Part shown: piece by piece, positions 18,352 through 24,227 of the stretch | How the letters are laid out: each line of letters starts with the position of its first letter | Numbering within the stretch: the first letter of the stretch is position 1 | Source: Gammaproteobacteria bacterium | GTDB taxonomy: Bacteria; Pseudomonadota; Gammaproteobacteria; Steroidobacterales; GCA-2729495 | Length of the DNA: 40,014 bases | Assembly (NCBI GenBank): GCA_009692345.1 | Contig: SHZI01000015.1 | Location: 1 to 40,014, forward strand | Reading direction: 5' to 3' | Translations under genes and position numbers: made by a program | Notes under the pieces: generated by a model | Databases searched by the model: none | Seen by the model: the letters and a program-made list of their open reading frames with translations, nothing else | Told to the model about the DNA's origin: nothing

Positions 18352-18708
18352 GTGGAAGTGGATCTGCGCAAGGGCGCGCACAAGCAGCCGGACTTCCTGC
18401 AGCTCAATACCTTCGGCCAGGTGCCCGTGCTGGACGATAACGGCACGGTCATCCCTGACTCCAACGCGATCCTCGTCTATCTCGCCCGGCGCTACGGTGG
18501 CGAAAGCTGGCTGCCGGGCGATCCCGTTGGTGCGGCGGCGGTCCAGCGCTGGCTGTCCGTCGCTGCCGGCCCGATTGCCTTCGGCCCCGCCAGGGCGCGC
18601 CTGATCATGGTGTTCGCCGCCAACGGCCTGCGGATCGAGGCCAGTGAGCGGCAGTTTCACTGGCCCCTGGGACCGTGGCCGGAAGCTCTTCCCGGCTTCG
18701 AACTCTGA
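18352..18708 (+). pseudogene. Glutathione S-transferase remnant
   Basis: This frame reads [43 protein letters not shown], and [17 protein letters not shown], the middle of the thioredoxin domain and first helix of a GST. The N-terminal 25-30 residues with the catalytic site are missing; an in-frame stop TAG lies only about 15 codons upstream of GTG 18352. The C-terminal domain is cut after ARLIMVF and the frame ends with PEALPGFEL, reminiscent of a GST C-terminus. This implies an internal deletion of most of the helical domain. It is unrelated in detail to the intact nu-class copy at 16448. Confidence 0.7.
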
Positions 18709-18819
18709 CTCCAGAACCCGCGTTTCTCCAGCAATTAGCTGGAATCGCGACTTTCAGCGTCGCCATTGCTCGCCTACGCTCACTTCTTGCGCGCTTCCCG
18801 TGCGTTACTGGGAGATCAT

Positions 18820-18840
18820 CTGTCAAGTCACGCTTGACAG
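18820..18840. promoter_or_regulatory. Palindromic operator upstream of higBA
   Basis: CTGTCAAG (18820-18827) and CTTGACAG (18833-18840) form a perfect 8-base inverted repeat with a 5-base spacer, 13 bases before the higB ATG. HigA antitoxins bind such palindromes to autoregulate, so this is a good operator candidate. The right arm contains TTGACA, a consensus -35, with TATACT 19 bases further on. That -10 would lie inside the first higB codons, so the functional promoter is uncertain. Confidence 0.6.
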
Positions 18841-18853
18841 CCTCCGGCTCCCG

Positions 18854-19138
18854 ATGGCTATACTCAGCTTCAGCAGCAAGAGTCTCGAGCGACTCTTCGA
18901 GGACGATGATCGCACAGGTTTTTCACCGGCCTCCGTTCGTAAACTCGGAGACATCCTCGCGGCGCTGGACAATGCCCGGACCCTGTCAGACCTGCGCGTG
19001 TTTCCCGGGTGGCGGCTCCACCCACTGTCCGGCAGCCTGGACGGGCTCTGGAGCCTCACGGTAACCAGAAACCGACGGGTCGTCTTCCACTTTTTCCGGG
19101 GCAACGCTTATGACGTGGACCTGGTTGACTACCACTAA
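18854..19138 (+). CDS. higB: HigB-type toxin (RelE superfamily mRNA interferase)
   Basis: 94 residues, complete. Features are KSLERLFEDDDRTGFSP at the N-terminus, FPGWRLHPLSGSLDGLWSL in the centre and the terminal VVFHFFRGNAYDVDLVDYH, the usual HigB end. HigB cleaves mRNA at translating ribosomes, and HigA neutralises it. Only one ATG is available in a sensible position. It lies 12 bases before higA in the usual toxin-first order and just downstream of a perfect palindrome. The toxin-side sequence of the damaged pair near 14 kb is clearly a different homologue. Confidence 0.88.
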   Translation: MAILSFSSKSLERLFEDDDRTGFSPASVRKLGDILAALDNARTLSDLRVFPGWRLHPLSGSLDGLWSLTVTRNRRVVFHFFRGNAYDVDLVDYH

Positions 19139-19150
19139 GGGGTGATTGCG

Positions 19151-19450
19151 ATGGCCATGAAGACCCCCCCGCACATGGGCGGTTTCATCTGGCGGCAGAT
19201 ACTGGAACCACTCGGCCTGACCGTCAGCGAGGCTGCCGTCGCCCTGGGTGTCTCCCGGCAGGCGTTGTCCAACCTGTTGAACGAGCACGCGGCGTTGTCG
19301 GCCGAGATGGCCCTGCGCATCGAGAAGGCTTTTGGCCCGCGGCTCGAGCACCTGATGCAGATGCAGCTGGCCTACGACGTCGCCCAGGCACGCTCGCGGG
19401 AGCGGAGCATCCGGGTGCAGAAGTTCCGGAAGGCGGCGACCCGAGGCTAG
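19151..19450 (+). CDS. higA: HigA-type antitoxin, Xre family
   Basis: 99 residues. The helix-turn-helix is LTVSEAAVALGVSRQALSNL, followed by SAEMALRIEKAFGPRLEHL and a basic tail. It pairs with the HigB directly upstream; AAGGGGTG ends 5 bases before ATG 19151. GTG 19142 and ATG 19157 are in-frame alternatives. It probably represses the operon through the palindrome at 18820-18840. Confidence 0.88.
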   Translation: MAMKTPPHMGGFIWRQILEPLGLTVSEAAVALGVSRQALSNLLNEHAALSAEMALRIEKAFGPRLEHLMQMQLAYDVAQARSRERSIRVQKFRKAATRG

Positions 19451-19487: not shown

Positions 19488-21095
19488 TCAGCTCCCCGCG
19501 ATCCTCAGCCACAGGGTCTTCAGGTAGGCAGGCTCCTCCCGCGTAATCGGAAAGTCCGGCGGCTGGGGCACATAGTGCTCCTGAACGATGCCCCGCCCCG
19601 CCCCCAGGATGGCGCCCCGCACCTGAGCGACAAAGGACGCCGGCATCAGGCGCGCTGTATTCGTCGAGGCCAGCAGCACGCCGTTGGCTCGCAGGAGCGG
19701 CAGCGCCAGGGAAACCAGAAGTCCGTAGTCCGTCTCGCTGCGGAAATCCCCATGCTCCCGCGACCGGGAAAACGTTGGCGGGTCGAGGATCAGCACGTCA
19801 AACTGGCGGTCCTTTCTCGCCAGGCGTCTCAGCCAGTCGAAGACATCGCCGTAGATAAAGTCATGGGCGGCGGGGTCCAGGCCATTCAGCTCGAAGTTGC
19901 GCCGCCCCCAGTCCAGGTATTTGCGGGACAGATCCAGGCTCGTCACGCGGGCTCCGCCCAGCGCGGCGCACACGCTGAAACCACAGGTGTAGGCGAAGCA
20001 GTTGAGCACTTCCGGTTTGCCGGACTGCCCCTCGGCGCTGAGCGGAAAGCCGGCCGCTACGTGGCCCGTCAGGAGACGCCGCCGGTTGTCCCGCTGGTCG
20101 AGGAACAGGCCCACTGAGTAGCCTTCGGTCAGGCTGAGTTCAAAGGTCACGCCGTTCTCGCGGACCGGCAAGCGCTCCGGGGTCGCTGCGCCCGTGAGGA
20201 GCTGGGGAGAGGCCTCGGCGACGGGCACCTTCCGGACCTGACGGAGCAACTGCTTGAAGTAGACGCCCTGAATGGCGGGCGAGCCTTCCCCGGAACCCAG
20301 GAGAGCACTGGCTGCCGCCCCGGTTGGCGGGTCCTCCCCCGCCAGCAGCAGCCATCCCCCGAGACGGTCCCGATAGCGCCCCGGTTCCCCGTCCGCCGCG
20401 CCCTGCACACACCGAAACGTATCCGTGGCCGCCCGGTCGATGACCGCGTCCCGCAGTTGCCGGGCCGCCGGTGTGGCGAAATCCGGCGGCGCCGCCAGGC
20501 GCAGAACATCCCCGGATCCCGGCTGCTTCAACGCCAGTTCAGCCGCGTGCAGATGTAGTCGGGCGGCGGCAGTTCCGCCGTAGAGCGCATCACCCAGGAT
20601 GGGCAGGCCCTCTGCAGCCGCATGAACGCGAATCTGGTGGGTACGCCCGGTCACAGGCTCCGCCTCGAGCCAGGTGCACGCCCCCTCCCGGCGCAGGAAC
20701 CGAAACCGGGTCTCAGACCGCTCGCCACCCGCGGTCAGGGGACGGCTCTCGTAGTGAGCCCCACTCCGCAGGATCGACGAAAGCACGGTGAACTCGTCCC
20801 GCAGCACCGGCCGGTCGGTCACCAGGATGTAGCGCTTGTGGACTTCCCGCTCGGTGAACTGGCGGGTGAGGGCTCGATTGGCCACGGTGGTCTTGCCAAA
20901 CACCAGCAGCCCGCTGGTGTCCTTGTCGAGACGGTGGATGATCGCGAGTTGCGCCCACCGGGGTTCCCGGTGTTTCAGCCAGTCGTAGATGCCCTCCCCC
21001 GCGTGGGGTCCGGGCGCATGGGTGTTCCAGCCGGGCGGCTTGTTCACTACCAGCAGATCGTCGTCTTCGTAAACGACGCAGGGTGGCAGAATCAT
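19488..21095 (-). CDS. Fusion protein: RluA-type pseudouridine synthase + RlmI/K-like SAM methyltransferase
   Basis: 535 residues in two enzymatic halves. Residues 1 to about 225 are an RluA-family pseudouridine synthase: catalytic Asp57 in [20 protein letters not shown], and the RTHQIRVH motif at 151-158. Residues about 235-535 are a class I SAM methyltransferase of the RlmI type: [14 protein letters not shown] at 329-342, SAM motif [11 protein letters not shown] at 365-375, the acidic DLS at about 388 and the DPPTFSRS motif near 438. It could isomerise a uridine and methylate a nearby base in 23S rRNA; the target positions are unknown. ATG 21095 overlaps the stop of the VF530 gene by 4 bases (ATGA). 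The preceding genes encode an rRNA helicase and RNase D, consistent with a role in ribosomal RNA. Confidence 0.9.
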
Positions 21096-21325
21096 ACGGG
21101 CCCGGGCGGTTGGACCTGCAGATAGAGGCTCTCAACCTTCTGGCGCGCCCAGAGGGTCCGGCGCAGAAACTTGAGGCTTGAGGCCACGCTCGGGTCGTTG
21201 GTGAAGCACCGGATCGGAAGGCGGCGGCCCAGTTCGTCCCAGCCAAGAACATCCACAAGCTCACTGACGATGGCCTCGAGGGTAATCCCGTGCAACGGAT
21301 TCTTTGGCTGTGGCCTCGTCGTCAC
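21092..21325 (-). CDS. VF530 family (DUF2132) small protein
   Basis: 77 residues. Matches the VF530/DUF2132 pattern: [36 protein letters not shown] and [21 protein letters not shown] structure of this family exists and DNA binding has been suggested from fold, but the function is not established. The GTG start overlaps the dbpA stop (GTGA) and the stop overlaps the fusion-protein ATG, so it is made together with rRNA-acting enzymes. An RNA-related role is an attractive guess from context. Confidence 0.87.
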
Positions 21326-22734
21326 TTCTCGCGGCCAATCTGGGGACTGCCAAGTTGATAGACGCGAAAGGCCTTCCCCTTGATCTTGCCGGCGCGCAAC
21401 CCGCGCAGCGCGGCCTCGGCCCGGTCGCTGCGGACAGCGACATAAGCCCGTTGGGCGCCGATATCGATCTTGCCGATGGCTTCACCGGGCAGGGCGACGT
21501 CGCCGGTGAGGGCGCCGAGCAGATCGCCCGCCCGGAGCTTGTCCTGACGACCACCTTCGATGATCAACGTCGTCATCAATGCGGTTGGTGGCCGGCGCGT
21601 TTCGTTGACGGGTAGCTGGCCCCACCGCACGGGTGCCCCGGCCTTTAACTCGAGGGCCGCGATGCGACCACGCTCCCGTGGTGCACAGAGCGCCAGAGCG
21701 AGGCCCTTCTGACCCGCACGACCGGTGCGGCCAATGCGGTGCAGGTGAATGTCAGGATCAGTGGACAGCTCCCACGACACGACAGCCGCCAGGCCCTTGA
21801 TGTCGAGCCCGCGGGCGGCGACGTCCGTGGCCACGAGTACCGTGCAGCTCTTGTTGGCGAAACGCAGCAGCGCCTCGTCCCGCTCCCGTTGTTCCAGTTC
21901 GCCATGCAACGCCAGGACGGAAAAGCCCCGCTTCGTGAGCTCCGCCGCGACATCCCGCACGTCGTTGCGGGTGTGGCAGAAGACCAGCGCCGATTCCGGC
22001 TCATAGTGCAGTAGCAGTGCGGCCAGGGCGTCGCTGCGGCTGCCCGACTCAACCTCGAAGAAGAGCTCCTCAATATCGTCAGTGCTGACCACGTTGTCGA
22101 CGGTGACCTCGACGGGACTGCGCTGCAGGCGACGGCTTAAGGAACGGATTTCATCGGGGTAGGTCGCTGAAAACAGCAGCGTCTGGCGCTCCTTTGGCGC
22201 CTGGTCCACGACCGCGGTGATCGCGTCGAGGAAGCCCATGTCGAGCATGCGATCGGCCTCATCGAGCACCAGCACCCGCAGCGCGGAGAGTTCGAACGTC
22301 GCGCGCCCCAGGTGATCGAGGATGCGGCCCGGCGTGCCGACGATGACGTGGGGAGCGGTCTGCAGCGACGGCGTCTGGGTCCGCACGGGCACCCCGCCGC
22401 AGAGGGTCACGACCCGGAGGTTCGGTATGAAACGTGCAAGGCGCCGCACCTCGATGCTGACCTGATCGGCGAGCTCCCGCGTAGGACAGAGCACGAGGAC
22501 CTGCACCTGGTCCCGTTCCACGTCGATCCGGGCCAGCAGCGCCAGGCCGAACGCCACAGTCTTGCCGCTGCCGGTGCGCGCCTGGGCGATCACGTCCTTG
22601 CCCGCCAGCAGGCTCGGCAACGCGTGCTCCTGGACCGGCGTCATCTGGGTGAAGCCCAGCACGGCAATCGCCCGGGCTAGCGGTGGTGCCAGAGCCAGCG
22701 CGGCAAAGGTGCTGGCAGCCGGCTGCCCGTTCAC
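21322..22734 (-). CDS. dbpA: ATP-dependent RNA helicase DbpA
   Basis: 470 residues. A DEAD-box helicase with Walker A ARTGSGKT at 52-59, [16 protein letters not shown] at 158-161 in [27 protein letters not shown] and [10 protein letters not shown]. The C-terminal part ([18 protein letters not shown] to the end) matches the RNA-binding domain that directs DbpA to hairpin 92 of 23S rRNA during 50S assembly. The GTG start overlaps the rnd stop by GTGA, and its own stop overlaps the VF530 gene. Confidence 0.93.
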
Positions 22735-23879
22735 CCGCAGAGGCCGCGCAACGCGTCGCCATACCGGGCCGCACGCCGCGCGCCGAGCTGGGGCACAGTG
22801 GCCAGATCGGCGGCGCCATGCAGCGTGAGATGCTCCAGCGCTCGCGCGGGCAATACGAGCTGCAAGGGCACGGTGCGGCCGTCGGCTTTGGTCCGGCGCT
22901 CGGCTTCGTCCCGGCGCCAGGCCTTGAGGCGCTGCTCCCGGGCCTGGGCCTCCGGCGTCATGCGCAAGAATTCCCTGCGTGCGGGCGCGGGATCGTCCTT
23001 GGCCAAAGCCATTGCCTCAAGCAACGCAGGACCGTAGCGGTCGACGATGTAGCTTTTGAGCCGCGACTTCTTCAGGTCCGCTGGGGTCGCCGGCGGGTGC
23101 CGGGCGAGCAACCCGAGTACCTCGTTGTTGATCATGCGCCCCGCCGGCAGGTTCTCGGCCTGGGCTGCCCCATCCCGCCAGGCATAGAGCCGGGCAAGAA
23201 CTCGCAGGCCATCCGGCCCCAGGGCATTAACGTCGCGGATTCTCCACATCCCTGAGGGATCGAAGCCGCCATTCCAGCCCGACGCCGCGACGACCCGGTT
23301 CGCCTGGTCAACTTCGTCCTCAATGTCGGCGGCAGCGACGGCTGTCTTCAGGGTCTCGGCGATACCAGGCAGGTAGACGACGTCATCGATCGCGTAGGCG
23401 AGCGCCTCGGGATGCAACGGGCGCGTGGCCCAGTCGTAGGTGGCCCAGGCCTTGCCCAGCACGACGCCGGTCATGGCCTCGACGAGGCTGCCGTAGCCGG
23501 TCTTCGGCCAGCCCAGCAGCGACGCGGCCTGTTGCGTGTCCCAGACCCCGCCCATTTCGATGCCGAAGTCCCGACGCATGCAGGCGGCGTCGTACTCGCC
23601 GCCGTGGAGGTACAGCGGCCGGTCGGTGCGCTCGAGCTCGGCCCGCAGGGGCGTGAGTACGGCCGAGGGCGTCTGGCTGGCGACAACGCCGAGGGCCAGC
23701 GGGTCGATAACGAAGAACCCGCCACCGGCGTTGATCTGGATCAGGCAGACCTGCTCCCGGTAGACGAACATCGAGTTGGACTCGCTGTCGAGGGCCACCC
23801 AGGGGGCGGCGGCAAGGGCCTTGGCCACGGTGGCAAGCTGGTCGGGATGGTCGACGCGAAGATGGTTGGGTATGGACAT
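22731..23879 (-). CDS. rnd: Ribonuclease D
   Basis: 382 residues. 3'-5' exoribonuclease for tRNA and other stable RNA maturation. The DEDDy active site is visible: D31 and E33 in VALDSESNS, D97 in LHGGEYDAAC, and Y162/D166 in AYAIDDVVYL. An HRDC domain follows from about residue 205. First gene of a four-gene overlapping set (rnd, dbpA, VF530, fusion enzyme) transcribed leftward. A TATACT hexamer lies 8-13 bases before the ATG, which would put the start of transcription at or very near the start codon. Confidence 0.93.
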   Translation of the reverse strand: MSIPNHLRVDHPDQLATVAKALAAAPWVALDSESNSMFVYREQVCLIQINAGGGFFVIDPLALGVVASQTPSAVLTPLRAELERTDRPLYLHGGEYDAACMRRDFGIEMGGVWDTQQAASLLGWPKTGYGSLVEAMTGVVLGKAWATYDWATRPLHPEALAYAIDDVVYLPGIAETLKTAVAAADIEDEVDQANRVVAASGWNGGFDPSGMWRIRDVNALGPDGLRVLARLYAWRDGAAQAENLPAGRMINNEVLGLLARHPPATPADLKKSRLKSYIVDRYGPALLEAMALAKDDPAPARREFLRMTPEAQAREQRLKAWRRDEAERRTKADGRTVPLQLVLPARALEHLTLHGAADLATVPQLGARRAARYGDALRGLCG

Positions 23880-23963: not shown

Positions 23964-24227
23964 ATGGAACAGCAGCGGTTACATGCACTGCTGGTCGAAC
24001 TCGACCGGGAACTCAAGTCAGCCGGCGCGCTGGATGCCCGGTCCCGGGAACTGGTCGACCAGGTCCTCACTGACGTCCGCCAGCTCAACGTGCCCACTGA
24101 CAAGAGTGAGCATCAGTCGGTCGAGACCCGTCTGCGGGAGCTGGTGCTGCGCTTCGAATCCGACCACCCCCGGCTGTCCGGGGCTGTGAGTCAGGTCGCC
24201 GACGCCCTCGGCAAGATGGGCATCTAG
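23964..24227 (+). CDS. DUF4404 family protein
   Basis: 87 residues, helical and charged: QQRLHALLVELDRELKSAG, ELVDQVLTDVRQLNV and LRFESDHPRLSGAVSQVADA, ending LGKMGI. This matches the small DUF4404 family of proteobacteria, whose function is unknown. It is divergent from rnd. Its TAG stop shares the palindrome CTAG with the stop of the convergent nadE gene, so the two genes overlap by 4 bases at their ends. Confidence 0.82.
   Translation: MEQQRLHALLVELDRELKSAGALDARSRELVDQVLTDVRQLNVPTDKSEHQSVETRLRELVLRFESDHPRLSGAVSQVADALGKMGI

Follow-up and report, generated by a model that had tools for sequence, protein, structure and literature searches.

A pseudouridine synthase fused to an RlmK-like methyltransferase, apparently passed by horizontal transfer from a Verrucomicrobiota order to a gammaproteobacterial family

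The window analysed here (the whole stretch of 40,014 nucleotides of contig SHZI01000015.1, assembly GCA_009692345.1, from a Gammaproteobacteria bacterium) contains a gene for a single protein in which an RluA-type pseudouridine synthase is followed by a methyltransferase of the COG1092 type. We propose that this fusion could be a bifunctional enzyme making pseudouridine and 7-methylguanosine (m7G) in domain V of the 23S ribosomal RNA (rRNA), transferred from an order of the Verrucomicrobiota, a proposal whose chances we regard as evenly balanced. Taken singly, both halves are of known types; their combination, its presence across that order and its repeated transfer seem to be new, and no description of the fusion was found in the open-licence literature, where absence is weak evidence. 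The protein and its two halves are laid out as follows:

19488-21095, minus strand: fusion gene, 535 amino acids; RluA-type pseudouridine synthase (about residues 1-205) and RlmK/COG1092-type methyltransferase (about residues 208-535).
20481-21095, minus strand: synthase half of the fusion, residues 1-205; H54-R55-L56-D57, including the catalytic Asp; no S4 domain ahead of it.
19491-20474, minus strand: methyltransferase half of the fusion, residues 208-535; motif IV DPPTFS (438-443) and Asn479 at the motif VI position.

The sequence-only reading of this DNA had already described one chain joining a pseudouridine synthase to a methyltransferase, and had pointed to a sequencing frameshift at the junction as one way in which this could fail. 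What we find is a genuine frame of 535 amino acids with both active sites kept, and both halves in frame across relatives. Pfam recognizes PseudoU_synth_2 at residues 13-161 and Methyltrans_SAM at 294-491, both above the curated cut-offs, and structure matches divide near residue 208, with pseudouridine synthases in front and methyltransferases behind. A scan of named genomes yielded at least 80 loci, of which the best 80 were kept; in all of these a single reading frame holds both halves, with 54–76% identity to the fusion across the best segment. The fusion is also present in two single-contig genomes (G010 and G017) and, together with the conserved catalytic residues, these observations exclude a frameshift or assembly artefact. 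Conservation was followed in 86 full-length fusion proteins, comprising nine gammaproteobacterial rows and 77 of the best 80 loci from named genomes. In the synthase half, R55, L56, D57, K87, Y89, H153, Q154 and R156 occur in all 86, and H54 in 85; in the methyltransferase half, DPPTFS and N479 are likewise invariant. The ratio of nonsynonymous to synonymous substitution rates (dN/dS), taken from dN and dS for four pairs from seven gammaproteobacterial genomes, with G006 in two pairs and an approximate junction between halves, was low in both, at 0.13–0.21 for the synthase half and 0.13–0.23 for the methyltransferase half. An AlphaFold model with 44 aligned proteins as input reached a mean predicted local distance difference test (pLDDT) score of 94.2 and a predicted template modelling (pTM) score of 0.92; the methyltransferase half comprises an EEHEE element and a Rossmann fold.

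Within the family to which the window belongs, the fusion occurs in 10 of 37 genomes (the copies of G002 and G035 being cut by contig ends), and no full-length fusion was found in 23 other genomes sampled from the window's order. At a threshold of 1e-60 a single match was obtained among 369 genomes of the class and another among 299 of the phylum, in each case the window's own, with no full-length match in the other 368 and 298 genomes drawn. The picture is different for the Verrucomicrobiota order around G424, where 106 of 116 genomes give a match at 1e-60: both halves are present in 95 (some split across contigs or cut, and G1058 with an in-frame TGA), the methyltransferase stands alone in nine, for which the stretches were fetched and checked, and of the remaining two G1037 has only a methyltransferase part, on a cut contig, and G1050 was counted in neither class. 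Two contigs titled Proteobacteria (L054 and L055) carry the fusion and fall among the Verrucomicrobiota rows. No full-length match appeared in 239 other Verrucomicrobiota genomes drawn, the best one (7.8e-86) covering the methyltransferase part only; the best matches there are unfused methyltransferases, mostly of 300–340 amino acids, and a BLAST search with the window's synthase half found no synthase gene within about 1.5 kb of those compared (L158–L182). Carriage by a plasmid or phage is disfavoured, since no plasmid record (of 72,556) and no phage record (of 50,697) held at least 80% of the query in one place.

An unrooted tree was built from 51 of the 86 fusion proteins, and in it the nine gammaproteobacterial rows are scattered over three positions within the Verrucomicrobiota. 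None of 200 bootstrap trees gathered them into one clade, and their monophyly was rejected (log-likelihood 74.5 lower; approximately unbiased (AU) test, p 0.000846). In a wider tree the fusion clade (95, starred, with 31 fusion rows) does not include the unfused and worn relatives, which lie outside it. Given this position of the relatives and the distribution described above, repeated transfer from the Verrucomicrobiota order into the window's family is the simplest reading; we infer its direction and its number, most simply three events. Contamination of metagenome-assembled genomes as the source of the gammaproteobacterial copies is unlikely, since the fusion occurs in the single-contig genomes, and the copy of G002 lying in the same sucD-nadE-rnd-dbpA-VF530 run as in the window also weighs against it. 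The same data bear on the idea that the fused pair has no functional coupling at all and spread by drift and transfer: its operon context is not conserved and the methyltransferase also occurs apart, as would then be expected, but 95 of 116 genomes in one order retain the fusion, and it also appears on three distinct branches of a family in another phylum, and we hold this idea to be very improbable.

Whether relatives encode the halves separately was a question raised by the sequence-only reading, and in this regard the methyltransferase half does exist on its own in relatives. Within the Verrucomicrobiota order, six methyltransferase-only proteins were tested for a remnant of the synthase: a clear one survives in L257, at 43.6 bits over roughly the first 50 residues, those of L258 (9.2 bits) and L259 (4.5 bits) are weak, and in L252, L254 and L260 nothing exceeds chance. 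As the synthase half has been lost in some members of the order, methylation would be the more lasting function. Such a series within one order, from full fusion through remnant to methyltransferase alone, offers a natural test of whether the marks are mutually dependent. These genomes, nine of 116 of which keep the methyltransferase with no working synthase domain, together with the graded remnants, would also suit a view in which the synthase half serves chiefly to bind RNA, as a module that replaced the usual N-terminal domain, so that only methylation matters. Against this, Asp57, K87, Y89 and R156 are found in every one of the 86 full fusions and the synthase half evolves at a dN/dS of 0.13–0.21, and we consider a mere binding role quite improbable.

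The methyltransferase half belongs to the COG1092-type enzymes that use S-adenosylmethionine (PF10672, 84.2 bits against a cut-off of 27). In two trees, neither of which has the RlmO structure 4dmg among its rows, the fusions group with the unfused relatives, RlmK and a set of Firmicutes proteins, apart from the 5-methylcytidine (m5C) enzymes RlmI, 2as0, 1wxw and their kin (100/98 and 100/99, both starred), and in both best trees RlmK is the nearest named group to the fusions and unfused relatives (88/75 and 92/87, not starred). Motif VI reads SCS in RlmI, 2as0 and 1wxw, and has Asn in the fusions, RlmK and the Firmicutes rows. The fusions have no conserved Cys there: position 477 is Ser in 80, Cys in three and Ala in three of the 86 proteins, position 478 is Thr in 75, Ser in six, Ala in four and Cys in one, and position 479 is Asn throughout. 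The absence of this Cys and the separation in the trees lead us to reject an m5C methyltransferase of the RlmI/RlmO type. The METHYLTRANSFERASE half, that is, the methyltransferase half, and RlmK both have the stretch YLxW..RN..LNGL as well as DPPTFS. The fusion scores 135.7 bits with the RlmKL equivalog against a cut-off of 466, in a model that spans RlmL too, so that an RlmK part alone could hardly reach the cut-off; 11 listed fusions score 126–148 bits, compared with 48–73 for the second COG1092 protein of seven listed fusion-bearing genomes of the family, and Verrucomicrobiota paralogues score up to 108 bits. The RlmL half gave no match at 1e-12 in the window's genome, in 15 genomes of the family or in 14 Verrucomicrobiota genomes searched, and, as controls, all three added genomes of the same order contain a full RlmKL. 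In four genomes of the window's family (G007, G012, G013 and G015) the RlmKL model finds nothing at 1e-12, and three of them (G007, G012 and G015) show no PF10672 methyltransferase at 1e-8 either, so that these three apparently possess neither RlmI nor RlmK.

As to the chemistry, RlmQ reportedly makes m7G2574. The RlmK of E. coli makes m7G2069, and separate RlmK and RlmL proteins occur in other bacteria (PMC11194073). Because both enzymes act on the N7 of a guanine in domain V, m7G in domain V is the product to be predicted, with G2069 as first choice. From sequence relationships, the methyltransferase half most likely methylates guanine at N7; our best guess for the guanine is a G2069-like site (E. 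coli numbering), with rRNA as the presumed substrate.

The synthase half belongs to the RluA-type pseudouridine synthases (PF00849, 105.4 bits against a cut-off of 26.8). Its best fold matches are RluA (Z-score 26.5) and RluC (25.2). Sequence models gave 116.8 bits for RluC, 96.0 for RluD, 89.0 for RluA and 71.9 for TruC, none near its cut-off; for the RluC equivalog this is 378 bits, and the protein begins at the catalytic domain, with no S4. In a careful tree the synthase half forms a clade of its own (100/100, starred, 12 fusion rows), whose neighbour varies with sampling: a quick tree put it beside gammaproteobacterial RluC, with a value of 91 in the Shimodaira–Hasegawa-like approximate likelihood ratio test (SH-aLRT), and the careful tree shows no such adjacency. 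Since the nearest group depends on sampling, no uridine target is assigned to this half. The fusion being a replacement of RluC in the window's family is unsupported, because an RluC-like protein (330–349 bits, cut-off 378) occurs in all six family genomes tested, four with and two without the fusion; one of these proteins, L262, groups with E. coli RluC (100/100, starred). The retention of this protein in the recipients suggests that the fusion adds to RluC there. A strong RluC match was found in none of 24 Verrucomicrobiota genomes tested, whose completeness is not stated (best 171 bits). The same Verrucomicrobiota order has a second fusion, of a TrhO/UPF0176-like rhodanese domain followed by an RluA-type synthase (L298 of G424, L310 of G997 and apparently L314 of G980), with both domains above the Pfam cut-off in L298 and L310.

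The ambiguity of this half leaves room for split targets, with the methyltransferase acting on rRNA and the synthase, RluA- or TruC-like, on transfer RNA (tRNA), the two modifications being unrelated. RluA-type enzymes can modify tRNA, as the annotations of E. coli RluA and TruC indicate, these two also have no S4 domain, and RluA is the top fold match. However, the RluC and RluD models outscore those of RluA and TruC, and the confident two-domain model (pTM 0.92) points, if only indirectly, to a fixed arrangement of the halves. We find split targets unlikely.

For a single enzyme with an RlmK-type half acting on domain V, several observations pull in the opposite direction. The nearest folds to the methyltransferase half are those of the Firmicutes proteins 3vse (Z-score 35.5) and SMU.776 (32.7), followed by 2as0 (29.9), RlmI (29.1) and 1wxw (27.6), with RlmK farther away (26.8). 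A hidden Markov model built on the fusion scores SMU.776 (173), E. coli RlmI (167) and 3vse (158) above four RlmK rows, some of them shortened (106–149), and the top NCBIfam methyltransferase model is that for m5C2499 (140 bits, cut-off 650), RlmKL coming next with 136. Placing the Firmicutes group as sister to the fusions narrowly escapes rejection (AU p 0.060 and 0.061 in two trees). In the four fusion-bearing family genomes tested an RluC-like protein occurs together with the fusion, and the synthase half is absent or broken in nine of 116 genomes of the Verrucomicrobiota order, which makes the two activities separable. Finally, the assembly effect of RlmKL is ascribed to its RlmL domain (PMC11194073), which the fusion does not have.

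Part of this evidence would fit an RlmQ-like site instead, that is, m7G at G2574 together with a pseudouridine such as 2580, six bases apart and near the region of DbpA, which of all alternatives comes closest to the sequence-only reading. We take 3vse, from S. aureus, and SMU.776 to be RlmQ-like, and besides these nearest folds the quick tree with gammaproteobacterial RluC as neighbour (SH-aLRT 91) and the 24 Verrucomicrobiota genomes with no strong RluC match argue for it. On the other side stand the AU values just given and the two best trees, in each of which RlmK is sister to the fusions; so do the careful synthase tree, which does not put the fusion beside RluC, and the RluC-like protein kept by the fusion-bearing family genomes tested. 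The clade test (AU p 0.061) used stand-ins for YwbD, namely 3vse, SMU.776 and three Listeria/Enterococcus sequences. Altogether, an RlmQ-like site appears improbable to us. Three unverified records labelled as Listeria or Enterococcus phage from wastewater (L317, L318 and L319) contain methyltransferase genes that seem to be host housekeeping genes, likely a chromosomal carry-over.

Returning to the reading we prefer, one bifunctional chain would turn a uridine into pseudouridine with its RluA-type half and make m7G with its RlmK-type half, acting on domain V of the 23S rRNA in early or intermediate 50S precursors, with G2069 as the likeliest guanine. It would work much as RlmKL does, placing two marks by one chain on the folding domain V, in this case pseudouridine plus m7G. 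Rooted in one Verrucomicrobiota order, the fusion would have reached the gammaproteobacterial family by repeated transfer and landed here behind dbpA-VF530. That the two 23S rRNA marks lie near each other, as the sequence-only reading had it, is plausible, a prediction drawn from the RlmK grouping of the methyltransferase half, and the fusion probably marks RNA near the catalytic heart of the ribosome. A more ambitious form of the proposal is that one enzyme puts pseudouridine and m7G on nucleotides that neighbour each other in the peptidyl transferase region, with a pseudouridine site that the 23S rRNA of E. coli lacks, that this is standard in ribosome making in the Verrucomicrobiota order, and that the enzyme moved whole several times into a family that already had RluC; taken as a whole, we judge it rather doubtful. 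Ribosome marks are usually regarded as vertically inherited housekeeping and, if the proposal were true, the recipients would have gained new ribosome marks through horizontal transfer. To our knowledge, fused rRNA-modifying enzymes are few, RlmKL being the textbook case, and this fusion would unite two different chemistries in one such chain. Its repeated uptake across phyla would open the question of how assembly, translation and the response to antibiotics change when a further mark is placed close to the peptidyl transferase centre. In E. coli, G2069, U2504 and U2580 lie 23.9, 12.9 and 21.7 Å from A2451, and both RlmKL and RluC aid 50S assembly (PMC11194073).

In the window, the fusion closes a run of four genes, whose other members are:

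21092-21325, minus strand: VF530-family small protein, 77 amino acids; PF09905, 110.4 bits; 4-base overlap with each neighbour.
21322-22734, minus strand: dbpA, DEAD-box RNA helicase with DbpA RNA-binding domain, 470 amino acids; NF008744 equivalog, 664.7 bits.
22731-23879, minus strand: rnd-like 3'-5' exonuclease with HRDC domain (RNase D), 382 amino acids; PF01612 and PF00570 above cut-off.

The three successive 4-base overlaps that the sequence-only reading described between these genes were found again: GTGA at 22731-22734 (rnd/dbpA), GTGA at 21322-21325 (dbpA/VF530) and ATGA at 21092-21095 (VF530/fusion). Overlaps of this kind are ordinary in compact operons. The expected Pfam domains are all above their curated cut-offs (DNA_pol_A_exo1 and HRDC in the rnd-like protein; DEAD, Helicase_C and DbpA in DbpA; VF530 in the small protein); DbpA also clears its NCBIfam equivalog (cut-off 524 bits) and the rnd-like protein falls below its own, TIGR01388 (146 bits, cut-off 299). 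Around the run, a HigB-like toxin gene (PF05015) and a helix-turn-helix antitoxin-like gene (18644-19450, plus strand) are convergent with the fusion and end 37 bases from its stop codon, a DUF4404 small protein (23964-24227, plus strand) is divergent from rnd, and no structured RNA in the window rises above the Rfam gathering scores.

Only three genomes showed the order dbpA-VF530-fusion, namely that of the window (G000) and those of its two closest fusion-bearing relatives, G002 and G003. G002 keeps all three overlaps, with rnd in front too, and G003 the two around VF530. The other seven carriers of the family (G004, G005, G006, G010, G017, G023 and G035) have the fusion with neither dbpA nor VF530 in the 4–12 kb stretches examined, and among the best 80 loci listed these genes flank the fusion only in L041, the contig of G003. 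VF530 itself is above cut-off in five of 37 family genomes, and in G005 and G006 it lies elsewhere, with no dbpA alongside. Beyond these three genomes no conserved operon with DbpA was found; with the gene order confined to three genomes and VF530 so patchy, the link between the fusion and DbpA looks recent and local. The sequence-only reading had gone further and timed the modifications with DbpA in late 50S assembly, which is not supported, given this confined gene order and the stages reported for E. coli, where domain V marks belong to early or intermediate steps, except Um2552 and perhaps ho5C2501 (PMC11194073). DbpA is placed at helix 92 and the H89-H90 region (PMC9196750), so that a neighbourhood common to DbpA and the target of the fusion is possible.

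Among known systems, RlmKL (YcbY) of E. coli is similar in being one chain with a C-terminal RlmK-type methyltransferase and a second rRNA-modifying domain ahead of it, and in having DPPTFS and the YLxW..RN stretch. The front domain differs: RlmL, the methyltransferase for N2-methylguanosine 2445 (m2G2445), which carries THUMP, stands in RlmKL where the fusion has an RluA-type synthase, and the identity is 28% over the aligned part. RluC and RluA have the same catalytic domain and motifs as the synthase half, which departs from them in its lack of S4, its attachment to a methyltransferase, its clade of its own and scores far under their equivalog cut-offs. The Firmicutes COG1092 proteins 3vse and SMU.776 (2b78/3ldf) offer the closest folds to the methyltransferase half and also have Asn, not Cys, in motif VI, whereas their N-terminal part is another one (they align from chain residue 79 or 76), with no pseudouridine synthase. 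RlmI and RlmO (m5C1962 and m5C1942) have the COG1092 architecture of the methyltransferase half; RlmI, 2as0 and 1wxw differ in their Cys-containing motif VI and their separate tree group, and RlmI has its own N-terminal part in the place of the synthase half. The unfused Verrucomicrobiota proteins (L158–L182) are the same methyltransferase with no synthase half, and their length leaves no room for a further domain at the N-terminus.

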